Below, piece by piece: positions 44,068 through 49,607 of a DNA stretch of 64,000 nt. Both the position numbers and the translations under genes were made by a program. The stretch is from positions 196,692 to 260,691 of the forward strand of contig JAAFKE010000001.1 in the NCBI GenBank assembly GCA_013298215.1, in the 5' to 3' direction. Under the pieces are notes generated by a model. It was given only the letters and a program-made list of their open reading frames with translations, was not told where the DNA came from and made no database searches. The first letter of the stretch is position 1. Each line of letters begins with the position of its first letter. This DNA is from Cytophagales bacterium. Its GTDB lineage: Bacteria > Bacteroidota > Bacteroidia > Cytophagales > Spirosomataceae.

Positions 44068-45033
44068 ATGATTATAGTGACGGGAGCCGCTGGTTTCATT
44101 GGGAGTTGCTTGATAAGCAAACTCAACCAAGACAATTTTAACTTCATAATTGCCGTTGATGATTTTTCTCAGACCGAAAAAAAAGGCAACCTTGTAGGTA
44201 AAAAAATACAAGAATTTGTAGAAAGAGATCACTTTTTTGAATGGCTCGACGAAAACTACCAGGAAGTAGAATTTCTGTTTCATATTGGAGCGAGAACGGA
44301 TACAACTGAGTTTGACTCGTCGATTTTTGACCGATTGAATGTAGAATATTCCAAAAATATTTGGAAAAAGTGTATTGACTACCAAATTCCGCTGGTATAC
44401 GCGTCGTCGGCGGCAACGTATGGCCTGGGCGAGTTTGGCTACGACGACAACGAAGCAACCATACCGCAGTTGAAGCCGCTCAATCCGTATGGCGAATCGA
44501 AAAACGACTTTGATATTTGGGCACTGAAACAAGAAACGAAGCCTTTCTTCTGGGCGGGTCTCAAGTTTTTCAACGTTTTTGGCCCCAACGAATACCACAA
44601 AGGCCGCATGGCATCGGTTATTTTTCATGCCCACAACCAAATCAAGCAAACGCAAGCCATGCGCCTGTTCAAATCTCACCACGCAGACTACCAAGATGGC
44701 GAGCAAATGCGCGACTTCGTGTACGTAAAAGACGTAGTTGAGGTTTGTACCTTTTTGATGCACCACCGGCGCAACTCGGGCATTTATAACTTGGGCAGCG
44801 GCGTGGCACGAACCTTCAAAGACCTGGCCACCAATACTTTCAAGGCCATGGGCTTGGAGCCAAGCATCAGTTTTATTGATACACCCGCCGACATTAGAGA
44901 CAAATACCAGTATTTTACGCAGGCAAACATGGCCAAATTGCGGTCTATTGGCTACTCAAAGGCGTTTCACAGCCTCGAAGAAGGCATTGAAGATTACGTA
45001 AAAAACTACCTGGCTGCCGCAAAATATTATTAG
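44068..45033 (+). CDS. hldD: ADP-L-glycero-D-manno-heptose 6-epimerase
   Basis: 321 residues. Rossmann motif VTGAAGFIGSCLISKL at residues 4-19, and the signature HIGARTDTTE, which distinguishes HldD from other sugar epimerases. The extended SDR Y-x3-K is YGESK; the usual Ser/Thr is in ASSAATYG. HldD inverts the 6-position of the ADP-heptose used for the LPS inner core. TAAATTTG (44004-44011) is a -7 candidate without a clear -33. The 3' end overlaps the convergent regulator gene by four bases. Confidence 0.93.
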   Translation: MIIVTGAAGFIGSCLISKLNQDNFNFIIAVDDFSQTEKKGNLVGKKIQEFVERDHFFEWLDENYQEVEFLFHIGARTDTTEFDSSIFDRLNVEYSKNIWKKCIDYQIPLVYASSAATYGLGEFGYDDNEATIPQLKPLNPYGESKNDFDIWALKQETKPFFWAGLKFFNVFGPNEYHKGRMASVIFHAHNQIKQTQAMRLFKSHHADYQDGEQMRDFVYVKDVVEVCTFLMHHRRNSGIYNLGSGVARTFKDLATNTFKAMGLEPSISFIDTPADIRDKYQYFTQANMAKLRSIGYSKAFHSLEEGIEDYVKNYLAAAKYY

Positions 45034-46547
45034 GAAAACCTAAGTACTTCGACGGTTTTCTTCACGTTTGAGCGCCTTTGGTTGCGTTCAAAAATAACTG
45101 GCTTGGCCGCCCGAACCTCACAGCCCACGATCGAACACCGCTGACACGTTTCGTTTACCTCACGTTTTAGGAGGTTTGGGTCACGCAAAAACTTAAAAGT
45201 ATTCCTTAGTTTTGGGTTGATTAAAAAACCTAAACTCACGCTGCTATTTTGGTCGTGGGGCGGCGACGACTTAGCCAGCGACACCACAAAATACTGCTCG
45301 TTAGAATCAGCATAGGTAGAAATCTGGGCGCGGCAAAGGGGCTCACCGTCCCAACTTTTATCGTTTTGAAGTTGCTCAAGCTCCTTTAAGATTGTTAGCG
45401 ACACCCATCGGCGGCAATAGTGTTCGTCGAGGGCAGACGCGGGCGGGCCGTGGCGTTTGCTGAGGTACAACTCCTTGGTAAGCAAAAACCGATTGGCCGC
45501 CACGAGGTGGTTGAAACGCAAAAAGAACAGTTGTTTTACCTCAAAATGGCTGGCCATAATGTTGGTAATGCGCTGAAAAAACACCTCCGACGTAACGGCA
45601 TACTGCCGCATAACTTCGATGAGCCGCTGCTGCTGCCAATCAGTCTGGTCGAACAAGTGCGTGAGTTGTGCAATCAGGTTTTGGCGCGGAATTAAGATCG
45701 CCCCCGCAAAATACGACGCTCGGACGTTGTTCAAGACCTCCTCAAAAGACTCCGACTCGAGCGCCGACGACACCAAGCCGCGCTGGGTGATTTTTAGCTG
45801 CTGATAGCCCACCTCGCGGGCCAAAGTAAACGCCCGCTGTACGTCCGACAAACGACTGTTGAGGTTCAGTGTTCGCTTTTCTGGAATAAATACCGACCGC
45901 AGTTGGGCAAGTTCGGGCTGGAGGGTTTCGTCAAAATCGAGGATTATGTACTTGCAGTGCTCTGTTAAATAGGTACTTAGTTGCGTTATGCAGACACTTG
46001 GCACGCTGGAGAGGCTATTTTGATCCAAAAAAACGTTGGCTGCCAGTTCCAGGTCTTCAAAATAATTTTCCTGCATTTCTTGGTAAGTCCGAACCGCCGA
46101 AAAATAAAACTCTTGCACCCGCAGGTCATAACTACGCCCGATCTGAATAATTGTGTTCACAAACGCGCTCAGTTTGGCGGGCGCACTCGACATGAGTTCG
46201 AGAAAATTGGCGGGTTCGATCCCAAACATTTCGAGAGGGAGTTCTGACAAAATATTTGAGTTGAGCAACTCGGCGATTGGCTCCAATTTTTTACTCAATT
46301 TGAGCGACACCAGCGAGTCGTAATCGGTTTGGAGTGCTTTCGCAATCAGAAATATCTTTTCGGTTTTGGGGTATTTTTTGCCTTTCTCAATTTCGTTCAA
46401 GTACGAAGGCGAGAGCCCAGTTCTGTTTGCTAACTCGTGGGTCGATATTGCACGGTCGAGGCGTAGCTGCTTGACTTTGAGCCCAAAAATAAGTCGTACT
46501 TTATCGGTGTCGGCTGCCATAGAAAGATTTTTTCGTTTGTTGGTCAT
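45030..46547 (-). CDS. XRE-family regulator of the ScfR/RamB type
   Basis: 505 residues. A helix-turn-helix of the XRE family is at about residues 18-72 (HELANRTGLSPSYLNEIEKG). A long middle domain has an IrrE/ImmA-like fold, and the carboxyl end has the cysteine cluster CQRCSIVGCEVRAAKP typical of short-chain fatty-acid (ScfR) and RamB regulators of acetate and propionate metabolism. The site where a HExxH zinc motif is normally found reads AREVGY, so metalloprotease chemistry is unlikely. It is 47 bases downstream of fbp in the same direction, so it is probably the third gene of a pckA-fbp-regulator operon. Start is the ATG at 46547; a second ATG lies nine codons in. Confidence 0.88.
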   Translation of the reverse strand: MTNKRKNLSMAADTDKVRLIFGLKVKQLRLDRAISTHELANRTGLSPSYLNEIEKGKKYPKTEKIFLIAKALQTDYDSLVSLKLSKKLEPIAELLNSNILSELPLEMFGIEPANFLELMSSAPAKLSAFVNTIIQIGRSYDLRVQEFYFSAVRTYQEMQENYFEDLELAANVFLDQNSLSSVPSVCITQLSTYLTEHCKYIILDFDETLQPELAQLRSVFIPEKRTLNLNSRLSDVQRAFTLAREVGYQQLKITQRGLVSSALESESFEEVLNNVRASYFAGAILIPRQNLIAQLTHLFDQTDWQQQRLIEVMRQYAVTSEVFFQRITNIMASHFEVKQLFFLRFNHLVAANRFLLTKELYLSKRHGPPASALDEHYCRRWVSLTILKELEQLQNDKSWDGEPLCRAQISTYADSNEQYFVVSLAKSSPPHDQNSSVSLGFLINPKLRNTFKFLRDPNLLKREVNETCQRCSIVGCEVRAAKPVIFERNQRRSNVKKTVEVLRFS

Positions 46548-46594
46548 GTAAAGTACGGAAAGCTACCAAAAAAACACTGGAATAAACCAACAAT

Positions 46595-47590
46595 TTAGGG
46601 CATCACACTTTTTATCATCCTGGGCGACCCCGCATAAAAAACGCTGCGCTGGTGGAGTTCGCGGGGCACAATATCCAAAATGGCCTCCTCGCCGTTGGTG
46701 GCCATACCGCCTGCCTGCTCAACAATCAAGGCAATCGGAAAGCACTCATACAGCAGGCGCAGTTTTCCTTTGGGTGCGGCAGAGGTGGGCGGGTATAAAT
46801 AAATGCCTCCCTTTATGAGGTTTCGGTGGAAGTCTGCCACCAGCGAACCAATGTAACGGCCCATTAGCCTACGGCTTTTGCAAGTCTCAATGTAGGTTTT
46901 TATGTGGGGCGGGTAATCGTTGAAGTAACCTTCGTTGCACGAAAAAATACCGCCATCGTCGGGCGTATTGATCTGCGTTTGGGAAAGAATAAACTCACCC
47001 AGAGAGTTATCGTAGGTAAAGGCGTTCACGCCCTGGCCAGTGGTATAGACCAAAATGGTAGACGAACCGTAGAGAATGTAGCCCGCCGCTATTTGCTGCC
47101 GCCCGCCCTGCAAAAAATCGGCGGTGGTTGGCAGCGTTCCAACGGGCGACACGCGCCGATAAATGGAAAAAATAGTGCCAATCGACACGTTTACGTCGAT
47201 GTTCGACGAGCCATCGAGCGGATCGATAGCCACCACGTACTTGCCGCTGGTATTGCCAGTTTGCACCATTTCATCGTCTTCCTCCGACGTAATGGCGCAG
47301 ACCTCTCCCCCATTTCTGAGGGCGCGAATGAACCTTATATTGGCAACAACATCTAATTTTTGTTGCTGTTCTCCCTGAATATTGCCGCTACCTGCCGCCC
47401 CAGTGATGTCGATCAGGCCCGCGCGATTTACCTCCCGGTTTACTATTTTGCCCGCCAGTGCAATGTCTCGCAGCAGCTGCGAGAGTCCGCCCGTTGCCCC
47501 CTTGAAGGCGTTTTGTCTTTGTAATAAATGCCGATCCAGCGTGGTTCCCACTGGCAAACCAAGTAGCGCATTTGTACCGAGAGCGGCCAT
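46595..47590 (-). CDS. fbp: Fructose-1,6-bisphosphatase, class 1
   Basis: 331 residues, normal for the class. The metal and catalytic motif [19 protein letters not shown] is present, with SEEDDE ahead of it; GGIYLYPPT is the substrate loop. It hydrolyses fructose 1,6-bisphosphate in gluconeogenesis. Its ATG overlaps the pckA stop by one base (TAATG), so translation is coupled to pckA. The regulator gene follows. Confidence 0.96.
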
Positions 47591-49167
47591 TATTTGGCGG
47601 CGATTTTTGACAAATTACTCTCAAACCAGTGCATAAGTTGTTGGGCATTGCGGTCGTACATGGCTCCATCTTGCCAAGTTTGGCGCGGGTCGAGGAGCTG
47701 TTCTGGTACGCCTGGGCACTGCGTGGGCATTTGCAACTTGAATATGGGGTGCTCGCGGTAGGCAACATCGTTTAGATGACCACCCATGGCGGCATTAATC
47801 ATGTTGCGGGTCAGACTCAATTTCATGCGCGTGCCCGAGCCAAAACTACCGCCCGTCCAGCCCGTATTAATGAGCCATACCTGCACTTGGTGCTGCTTTA
47901 TTTTTTCGCCGAGCATATCGGCGTATTGGTGGGGTTTCAGGGGCAGAAACGCCGCTCCAAAGCAAGCCGAAAACGTTGCCTGTGGCTCGCTCACCCCCAT
48001 TTCGGTACCCGCAACTTTGGCGGTATATCCCAGCACAAAGTAGTCCATGGCTTGCGCCACGCTCAACTTCGAGACGGGCGGCAACACCCCGAAGGCATCG
48101 CAGGTCAAAAAGAAAATGTGTTTGGGAATACCCCCCACGGAGGGCTGCACCGCATTATCAATGAAATGTATGGGGTAGGCCGTGCGGGTATTTTGGGTAA
48201 GGGTGGTATCGGTGTAATCGACCTGGCGGGTATTTTTTTTGAAGCGGGTGTTTTCTACAATGGCACCAAATCGGATGGCATCAAAAATTTGGGGTTCGTT
48301 CTGGCGGGTCAGGTCTATGGCCTTGGCGTAGCAACCACCCTCAAAATTGAAAACGCCCGTTTCGCTCCAGCCGTGCTCGTCGTCGCCAATGAGGCCGCGC
48401 TCAGGGTCGGCCGAGAGCGTGGTTTTTCCAGTTCCCGACAAACCAAAAAACACGGCCACGTCGCCGTCTTTACCCACGTTGGCCGAGCAGTGCATGGGCA
48501 GCACGTTTTGTTGGGGCAGCAAAAAATTGAGTGCCGAAAACACCCCTTTTTTTATCTCGCCCGCGTAGCCCGTGCCACCAATGAGCAGGATTCTTTTGGT
48601 AAGATTTAACACCGCAAAATTCTCGCCGCGCGTGCCGTCTTCGGTGGGGTTGGCCTTGAACTCAGGCACGGCTATGACCGTGAAATCTGGTTCAAACTCG
48701 CTTACTTCGTCGTCGGTGGGGCGCAAGAACATATTGTTGCAAAACAGATTTTGCCACGCCGAGGTAGTCAGTATGCACAGATTTAGGCGGTGGTGCGGGT
48801 CGGCACTGGCGTTTGCATAGCGTACATAGGCAGTTTGGTATTCTAAAAAATAGCGCATCTTGCGGTGCAAACGCTCAAACTGTTCTTCGTCGAACATCAA
48901 ATTGACACTGCCCCAATCTACGGTGCTGCACGTTGTTTTGTCGAACACAATGAAACGATCTTTGGGCGACCGCCCCGTAAAATGCCCCGTTGAGCAAGCC
49001 AGCGCACCCGTTTCGGTCAGTTGGCCTTCTCCGTTTTTGAGCGCGTGTTCAATTAATTCGGAGGGGCTCAACTGAAAATGAAGGTCTTTCACATCATTGA
49101 GTTGTAGGAAATCGAGTGCCCGATCGGCGGCGGTCATTACAGGTTCGTTTGGGGCGAGTGCAGACAT
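47590..49167 (-). CDS. pckA: Phosphoenolpyruvate carboxykinase (ATP)
   Basis: 525 residues from the ATG at 49167; the frame is open 11 codons further but this start fits the family. The P-loop [20 protein letters not shown] and the Asp-rich metal site are intact, along with [15 protein letters not shown]. It makes phosphoenolpyruvate from oxaloacetate and ATP, the first committed step of gluconeogenesis. It is first in the pckA-fbp-regulator set. The promoter at 49198-49227 carries a perfect palindrome at its -33 element. Confidence 0.97.
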
Positions 49168-49197
49168 TTTTAATGTTGATGAAGTGTAATTGTGGCA

Positions 49198-49227
49198 CAA
49201 ATGTAGTTAGCGACTTTTATAAAACAA
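49198..49227 (-). promoter_or_regulatory. pckA: Promoter of pckA-fbp
   Basis: On the minus strand TTG (49227-49225), a 19-base spacer and TACATTTG (49205-49198), an exact fit to TTG-N19-TAnnTTTG. The ATG is 31 bases downstream. Confidence 0.75.
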
Positions 49228-49240
49228 GCGAATATTCGCT
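49227..49240. promoter_or_regulatory. Perfect 14-bp palindrome touching the pckA -33
   Basis: AGCGAATATTCGCT is its own reverse complement and touches the first base of the pckA -33 TTG. Its position suits a repressor or activator of the gluconeogenic operon. The XRE regulator encoded two genes downstream is the obvious candidate; this is inference. Confidence 0.6.
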
Positions 49241-49607
49241 AATATTAAAAATATTTCTGGCACGCAATTGGTTTGGTGTGCCGCCAGATTTTAGACCATG
49301 TCTTTTTGGGGGGGGTAATCTGCCGAAATATTTGAATAGGAATATTTCGGCGGTGGGCGTTCGGTTGCCACAAACGAAAAAGTCAGAGAGGAACCCTCTC
49401 TGACTTTCTGATTTACTCAACGTTATGAAAAACTTTCTTTTTTGACTGACAGATTAAAGCCAAGTCACAATATATTTAGTATAAAAATACTAACATATTT
49501 TAACTATTTGATTATTAGAGTGTTATAAATATTTTATATTCTAAATACTTGAAAAACAACCAACGCAGAACGATACCTCCGCCACTTATCACCAGCTTAC
49601 AAGTTCT
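49241..49607. other. Intergenic region between pckA promoter and LolD-like gene
   Basis: No gene is supported. It holds a perfect 11-base inverted repeat, GCCGAAATATT (49322-49332) with AATATTTCGGC (49341-49351), the terminator at 49376-49405, and AT-rich sequence to 49607. The inverted repeat and the pckA palindrome share a CGAA(A)TATT core. Confidence 0.6.
49376..49405 (-). terminator. Terminator-like hairpin downstream of the ABC ATPase gene
   Basis: AGTCAGAGAGG (49381-49391) pairs with CCTCTCTGACT (49395-49405). On the minus strand a U-run follows. It is 200 bases past the ATPase stop, so the transcript would carry a long 3' end. Confidence 0.7.

Follow-up and report, generated by a model that had tools for sequence, protein, structure and literature searches.

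Here we describe an apparent operon in a Cytophagales bacterium (Spirosomataceae; assembly GCA_013298215.1, contig JAAFKE010000001.1), in which pckA, fbp and a gene for an XRE-type regulator lie consecutively on the minus strand of a 64-kb window, the whole stretch of DNA that was analysed. We consider it likely that the regulator binds the palindrome AGCGAANNTTCGCT, represses pckA-fbp together with its own gene and is relieved by acyl-CoA, that its ancestral target was the glyoxylate genes aceBA, and that it also acts on ilvD and leuA. The features computed for this proposal are the gene order, the conservation and geometry of the operator, the predicted fold of the regulator and its conserved cysteines. 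The palindrome before the operon is very probably the binding site of the regulator, as judged from its conservation next to this regulator in many other Bacteroidota.

Both gene order and profile matches agree with the apparent operon proposed in an earlier, sequence-only reading. The first gene, pckA (47590-49167, minus strand), encodes an ATP-type phosphoenolpyruvate carboxykinase of 525 amino acids (aa), as judged from TIGR00224 (686 bits; cut-off 590), NF006820 (807 bits; cut-off 636) and the PEPCK_ATP domain. It is followed by fbp (46595-47590, minus strand), encoding a class 1 fructose-bisphosphatase of 331 aa (NF006778, 468 bits versus a cut-off of 368; FBPase N and C domains). The pckA stop and the fbp start overlap within TAATG, as had been noted, with one base, 47590, in common. 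The open reading frame (ORF) of the regulator has 505 codons (45030-46547, minus strand), and its start gives the 47-base distance from fbp reported earlier. Alignment A1 contains 21 other regulators, of which 13 start at residue 10 of the window protein and the remainder have longer predicted N termini; the likely start is therefore 46520, with a gap of 74 bases instead of 47. The protein of likely extent (45030-46520, minus strand; 496 aa) has an XRE helix-turn-helix (HTH), an IrrE-like (DUF955/M78) domain and a C-terminal Cys region.

The promoter assigned earlier to pckA was found as described, with TTG at 49225-49227 and TACATTTG at 49198-49205 (both minus strand), 19 bases apart; from the Bacteroidota promoter consensus we take these to be the -33 and -7 elements. 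Since the motif TANNTTTG is common in the window (101 observed versus 51 expected from shuffles), the -7 match alone is weak evidence; its placement relative to the operator is kept in relatives. The operator core, AGCGAATATTCGCT (49227-49240), kept in relatives as AGCGAANNTTCGCT, shares one base with the TTG and so does touch the -33.

We rejected the palindrome as stand-alone evidence, as the window contains four perfect 14-bp palindromes and AGCGAANNTTCGCT at up to three mismatches has 27 matches there versus 31 expected. It is the conservation, and not the palindrome itself, that raises the site above chance. A regulator match (E<=1e-20) was present in 41 of 59 genomes of relatives. From the 50 regulator matches in the relatives and the window's own genome, which has a second copy, we compared 43 loci, leaving out those of G058, G034, G027, G008 (two), G009 and G013. 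With at most one mismatch, AGCGAANNTTCGCT stood at 14 of 14 loci that have the regulator near pckA or aceB, and at 2 of the 29 others. A wider scan of 80 named loci, out of at least 566 relatives, spanned Spirosoma, Rudanella, Arcicella, Pontibacter, Hymenobacter, Marivirga, Tenacibaculum, Algibacter, Polaribacter, Saprospiraceae and others. Where aceB or pckA adjoins the regulator, the core was present at 43 of 44 loci (41 by the strict interval; at L247 and L251 it lies within an over-extended aceB ORF, hence outside that interval), and where neither does, it was found upstream of the regulator itself in 6 of 36. Altogether the 80 loci gave 59 core sites versus 0 for the reversed pattern, and exact sites in 60 genomes, our own included, numbered 64 versus 10 reversed. 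Two order-level genomes, G039 (L178) and G049 (L141), have the regulator on a different contig from aceBA and keep the aceB site. Where a genome lacks a regulator match, its sites (for example in G051, and two of three in G019) fall within ORFs or at a distance from starts and resemble chance occurrences. Separately, at five loci with no aceB adjoining the regulator (L268, L274, L279, L283 and L290; four Saprospiraceae and one Chitinophagales metagenome-assembled genome), TGCGAA or AGCGAANNTTCGCT stands 34-51 bp before the regulator ORF, and autoregulation of these regulators is probable from the position of the site.

A tree built from 44 copies of the regulator splits those of the family into clade A (12 rows, the window among them; SH-aLRT 97) and clade B (25 rows; SH-aLRT 96). 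Clade A consists of exactly those family copies situated near pckA or aceBA. In five genomes of clade A, aceA is kept, and there the regulator is divergent from aceB, with aceA and pckA downstream in the fuller loci. The other seven clade-A genomes show no aceA, three of them being only 78-90% complete, and all seven carry the core, at no more than one mismatch, before pckA; the palindrome, whose absence from the pckA promoters of relatives would have told against the sequence-only reading, is thus present there. Among other family genomes with pckA, the core precedes that gene in 1 of 8. The pckA scan omits a second, partial copy of G028 and includes an unoriented locus (L318) scanned as a whole, with no site. 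Neither aceA nor aceB was found in the window's own genome, which is 99.97% complete. In Arcicella (L221) cores stand before both aceB and pckA, and outside the family the regulators at L076, L095 and L096 face aceB-aceA, with the core present. We conclude that aceBA was probably the ancestral target in Bacteroidota, and that control was probably passed to pckA-fbp where the glyoxylate shunt was lost. The operon arrangement described earlier holds for our genome, but the same-strand order pckA-fbp-regulator occurs in only 1 of 12 clade-A rows, the regulator being divergent elsewhere; among these rows, it moved into the pckA-fbp operon in the own genome only. The regulator thus appears to have been handed from a lost pathway, the glyoxylate shunt, to the pathway downstream of it.

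The operator has a characteristic anatomy. We turned alike 42 operators, namely that of the window and 41 of the 44 named aceB/pckA loci; three were left out because there was no exact inner core in the interval or because the sequence was repeated. Counting at least four of five consensus bases in two neighbouring registers, an outer half-site GCGAA was found 18 bp out on the pckA/aceB side (-24 to -20 from the centre) in 34 of 42 operators, its mirror TTCGC on the regulator side in 27, and both in 23. With one operator per genus (n=22), the left half-site was present in 16 and the right in 14, against background means of 0.4 (maximum 2) and 0.9 (maximum 6), respectively. A weaker further rank, about 18 bp further out, appears on the regulator side at 36-38 bases from the centre (3, 5 and 7 of 42). 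The pckA/aceB -7, which reads CAAANNTA on the opposite strand, begins at position -37 or -36 relative to the centre in 25 of 42 operators, and a -7 facing the regulator starts 32 or 33 bases to the right in 10 of 42. From these -7 positions, the array covers the aceB/pckA promoter and, in divergent loci, lies between the two promoters. The core is the centre of a symmetric half-site array in near-fixed register with the pckA/aceB promoter. In the window, the outer half-site on the pckA side is GCGAC (49210-49214; four of the five bases of GCGAA), between the -33 and the -7. That on the far side, which faces the regulator promoter in divergent relatives, has decayed to ATTTC (49253-49257; consensus TTCGC), which is what one would expect once no promoter of the regulator faces that side any more. 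The half-site array, and it alone, suggests that the regulator may be a homotetramer.

The protein itself points to the PrpR fold. HTH_3 (41.7 bits) and Peptidase_M78 (33.8 bits) both scored above their cut-offs. A predicted model (49-row alignment, pLDDT 86.7) superposed on Mycobacterium tuberculosis PrpR (MtPrpR) over residues 146-501 with a VIA Z of 25.1 (299 of 329 residues) and a Foldseek E of 2.5e-11, whereas the next structural group, IrrE/PprI and CapP, reached Z 13.8 and lower. A search of the Protein Data Bank with the single sequence matched HTH proteins and an IrrE only; the profile matched PrpR. Cys378, Cys468, Cys471 and Cys476, invariant in 49 of 49 rows, occupy the places of the [4Fe-4S] ligands (C-X2-C-X4-C and a fourth Cys), so that a cluster is predicted. 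Two cavity residues, Phe240 and Arg344 (for Arg338 of MtPrpR), are likewise invariant (49/49). Phe149 corresponds to Phe155 of MtPrpR, with an offset of 6 in two alignments, and its column is Phe in 37 of 49 rows; tentatively, the acyl-CoA pocket would be PrpR-like and not RamB-like (His). By analogy, the regulator may bind CoA or acyl-CoA.

In fold and [4Fe-4S] ligands the protein fits its earlier description as an ScfR/RamB-like XRE regulator; in family membership it does not. The Pfam ScfR family, PF09856, was absent from the Pfam scan of the regulator and had no match at E<=10 across the own genome, while as a control it matched in three of 14 genomes, Corynebacterium glutamicum included. 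The best NCBIfam hit, the RamB equivalog NF038139 (residues 22-294), scored 55.1 bits against a cut-off of 700. We therefore regard the regulator as a Bacteroidota branch that shares the PrpR fold and Cys ligands and is filed neither as RamB nor as Pfam ScfR.

From these features we infer DNA binding, a tetramer on DNA, the cluster, the ligand, the sign of regulation and cotranscription. The regulator would occupy the core at the pckA promoter and, as a tetramer, the outer half-sites too, covering the -33 and the spacer towards the -7 and keeping RNA polymerase off; pckA, fbp and the regulator itself would thus be held down. Acyl-CoA accumulating on acetate, fatty acids or amino acids would enter the CoA cavity, closed by a lid stiffened by the [4Fe-4S] cluster, and would change the geometry or oligomeric state of the regulator, permitting transcription of the operon. 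The regulator gene closes the apparent operon, which would make the loop autoregulatory. The same protein would have faced aceBA ancestrally, been carried to pckA-fbp where aceA is missing, and act also on ilvD and leuA. The circuit is most likely an acyl-CoA-responsive autoregulated switch and the regulator probably a repressor. Repression seems likeliest from the analogy with Paracoccus RamB and from the overlap of the operator with the -33 and spacer, and this sign is the weakest step of the mechanism.

Several observations weigh against this proposal. The own genome's second copy, on contig C63, is a 47% identical clade-B paralogue that may bind the same core. The five aceA-bearing clade-A genomes have no site within 600 bp of pckA, their site being before aceB. 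At L262 the regulator adjoins pckA with no site in the interval, and G058 has aceA and the regulator with no exact site. Being related by descent, the compared loci do not count as independent trials. It is doubtful that a tetramer fully occupies the operator in the window, because the right half-site has decayed and the left keeps four of five bases. The His319 that stacks on adenine in MtPrpR aligns with Gln325 here, in a column of Q, H, L and Y, so that the grip on adenine may differ. Finally, the sign could differ from the one proposed, as Paracoccus RamB both activates and represses (PMC10370305).

In the 3.55-Mb own genome, AGCGAATATTCGCT occurs exactly once, at pckA, and AGCGAANNTTCGCT has three exact sites (reversed control 0), before pckA, leuA and ilvD. 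The core is 45 bp upstream of leuA (L093) and 54 bp upstream of ilvD, which starts on contig C7 and has its body on C60. The divergent gene at the C7 site, fadE-like, is 201 bp away, and we rejected the site as its operator; with the ilvD start 54 bp away on the opposite side and running off the contig, it is better read as an ilvD operator. (That divergent neighbour of the contig-straddling ilvD encodes an acyl-CoA dehydrogenase; NF058590, 795 bits.) We also rejected, as extra targets, the sites of the own genome that have one mismatch, at least nine of ten being within an ORF.

Across the family, the core (up to one mismatch) precedes ilvD in 29 of 35 genomes that have this gene, G006 being counted as without because its exact site lies about 840 bp away. 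By regulator, the figures are 29 of 32 genomes with a match and 0 of 3 without (G011, G019, G029; Fisher p 0.003); the classes were set by hand, "with regulator" including the partial copies in G008, G009 and G013, and G009 being classed outside clade A though its partial copy is 52% identical. Outside the family, ilvD was rejected as a target (core at 0 of 14 loci), and the second ilvD copy in G015 has none. The ilvD sites differ in anatomy from those of aceB/pckA: in two registers, the left outer half-site was seen in at most 3 and the right in at most 1 of 31 sites, versus 34/42 and 27/42, a count that omits L192 and L195, where the start motif was unmatched and core sites were seen. For leuA, a site with up to one mismatch was found in 11 of 36 family genomes with the gene (reversed control 2; the unoriented loci L360 and L364 were scanned whole, with no site), and leuA was rejected as a general target. 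At L142, L151, L153 and L160, ilvD has two exact cores 241-242 bp apart; at L206 (G005) the distance is 241 bp and one of the two cores has a mismatch. This spacing approximates an integral number of helical turns, as though suited to DNA looping. In G036 and G001, exact cores were also seen upstream of genes for a protein of 483 aa (L152, L155; assigned by Pfam to GAPDH in L152) and for one of 93 aa (L150, L154; assigned by Pfam to SCP2 in L150). Further exact cores stand 44 bp from the start of a gene of the glutamate dehydrogenase family (L138, G053) and 280 bp before a glutamate synthase gene (L147, G026). With sites in one or two genomes each, these four were not counted as part of the regulon.

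It may be the clade-B paralogue on C63, rather than the operon's regulator, that chiefly binds at ilvD and leuA, with the core shared and cross-talk between both proteins, and we give this somewhat less than an even chance. Clade-B-only genomes (such as G004, G015, G016, G031 and G033) carry ilvD sites, and the recognition-helix residues of the paralogues are similar. Against it, G001, G005, G035 and G036, which have clade A only, carry ilvD sites as well, so that clade A must be able to serve them and both paralogues may do so; moreover, within the stretch fetched, the core was present at just 1 of 25 clade-B loci (L068, one mismatch).

That the regulator is instead mainly an activator, contacting RNA polymerase from the -33 region so that acyl-CoA switches pckA-fbp on, is possible and, in our view, rather unlikely. 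There are precedents, as MtPrpR activates prpC and prpD (PMC6765138) and Paracoccus RamB activates the glyoxylate operon on acetate while seeming to repress it on succinate (PMC10370305). The geometry argues the other way. The operator overlaps the -33, an outer half-site sits between -33 and -7, and at 8 of 31 ilvD sites CAAANNTA lies 27 or 28 bases past the centre, which places the core downstream of a -7-like element, a blocking position.

Two further possibilities concern the loop and the oligomer. The regulator could be transcribed from a separate promoter, within fbp or in the 74 bases that follow it, with neither cotranscription nor a feedback loop; its divergent orientation in the other clade rows, where it needs its own promoter, speaks for this, but a sequence scan of the fbp-regulator gap found no TANNTTTG and no terminator-like site, and we hold it to be improbable. 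Similarly doubtful is a scheme with one protein gated by acyl-CoA and a [4Fe-4S] cluster, in which the tetramer holds the four-half-site arrays of aceBA and pckA-fbp and an acyl-CoA-bound dimer can still hold the lone 14-bp cores of ilvD and leuA. The lack of outer half-sites at ilvD supports it, and, if true, a single signal would redirect carbon between gluconeogenesis and the synthesis of branched-chain amino acids.

Very unlikely is ownership of the palindrome by another factor, such as one of LacI/Cra type, that adjoins the regulator through a common pathway: operators of the LacI family are typically even palindromes centred on CG, 8 of 42 operators have such a centre, and four clade-A loci (L041-L044) have in common a neighbour of 139 aa whose HTH_50 match falls below threshold (25.9 bits; cut-off 27), but the centre varies freely (TA 12, TT 9, CG 8, AA 7, AT 6), the 139-aa neighbour is absent from the remaining loci, among the neighbouring ORFs, many of them unlabelled, we recognised no second regulator next to the site, the ilvD site is missing from all three family genomes that have ilvD and no regulator match, and 6 of the 36 named loci without aceB/pckA have the site upstream of the regulator gene.

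As for the surroundings, a convergent epimerase gene (44068-45033) abuts the 3' end of the regulator. Upstream of the operon, past a minus-strand ABC-transporter ATPase gene, a terminator-like hairpin (49385-49399, minus strand) is a consensus match only; the region has nine such sites versus 7.1 expected from shuffles. Between that gene and pckA lie two inverted repeats, one of 11 bp, perfect, with an 8-bp loop (49322-49351) and the other of 20 bp at 85%, terminator-like (49372-49414).

PrpR/RamB-type acyl-CoA sensing is known from Actinobacteria and Proteobacteria, and the system proposed here would extend it to another phylum, with one protein family, one operator and one target set from Cytophagales to Flavobacteriales. 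The sequence-only reading knew of no described version in Bacteroidota. Likewise, judged by title and abstract start, no PrpR/RamB-type regulator of aceBA or pckA in this phylum appeared among the literature matches listed, mention elsewhere being possible; nor did those matches include a regulator of the glyoxylate shunt or gluconeogenesis in Bacteroidota.

Among known systems, IrrE/PprI of Deinococcus, a DNA-damage regulator, has the middle domain fold in common with the regulator (VIA Z 12-14; Pfam M78), but its alignment ends at residue 445, short of the Cys region present here. RamB of the Corynebacterium glutamicum type (NF038139) is the best NCBIfam hit, yet at 55 bits versus 700. RamB of Paracoccus denitrificans, a class 2 ScfR with a [4Fe-4S] cluster, is a tetramer that CoA esters convert to dimers, and its authors propose that the tetramer blocks the promoter and the dimer activates (PMC10370305, whose main text does not mention "bacteroid"). 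Its gene is divergent from aceB-icl, like the regulator in the aceBA-bearing loci here; unlike the symmetric half-site array, its site consists of two near-identical boxes with an 18-bp spacer, and the sites here also precede pckA, ilvD and leuA. MtPrpR (PDB 6CYJ/6CYY/6CZ6/6D2S) is a CoA-binding tetramer whose [4Fe-4S] cluster is held by Cys363 and 447-C-X2-C-X4-C-455, and whose Phe155 bears on which acyl-CoA binds (PMC6765138). It is about 19% identical to our regulator and serves the methylcitrate cycle, as opposed to an apparent gluconeogenesis target; its site is TTTGCAAA/TTTGCgAA instead of AGCGAANNTTCGCT, and it has His319 in place of Gln325. What the two proteins share is the fold, the ligands Cys363/447-455, which match Cys378/468-C-X2-C-X4-C-476, and the cavity residues, Phe240 corresponding to Phe240 and Arg338 to Arg344.

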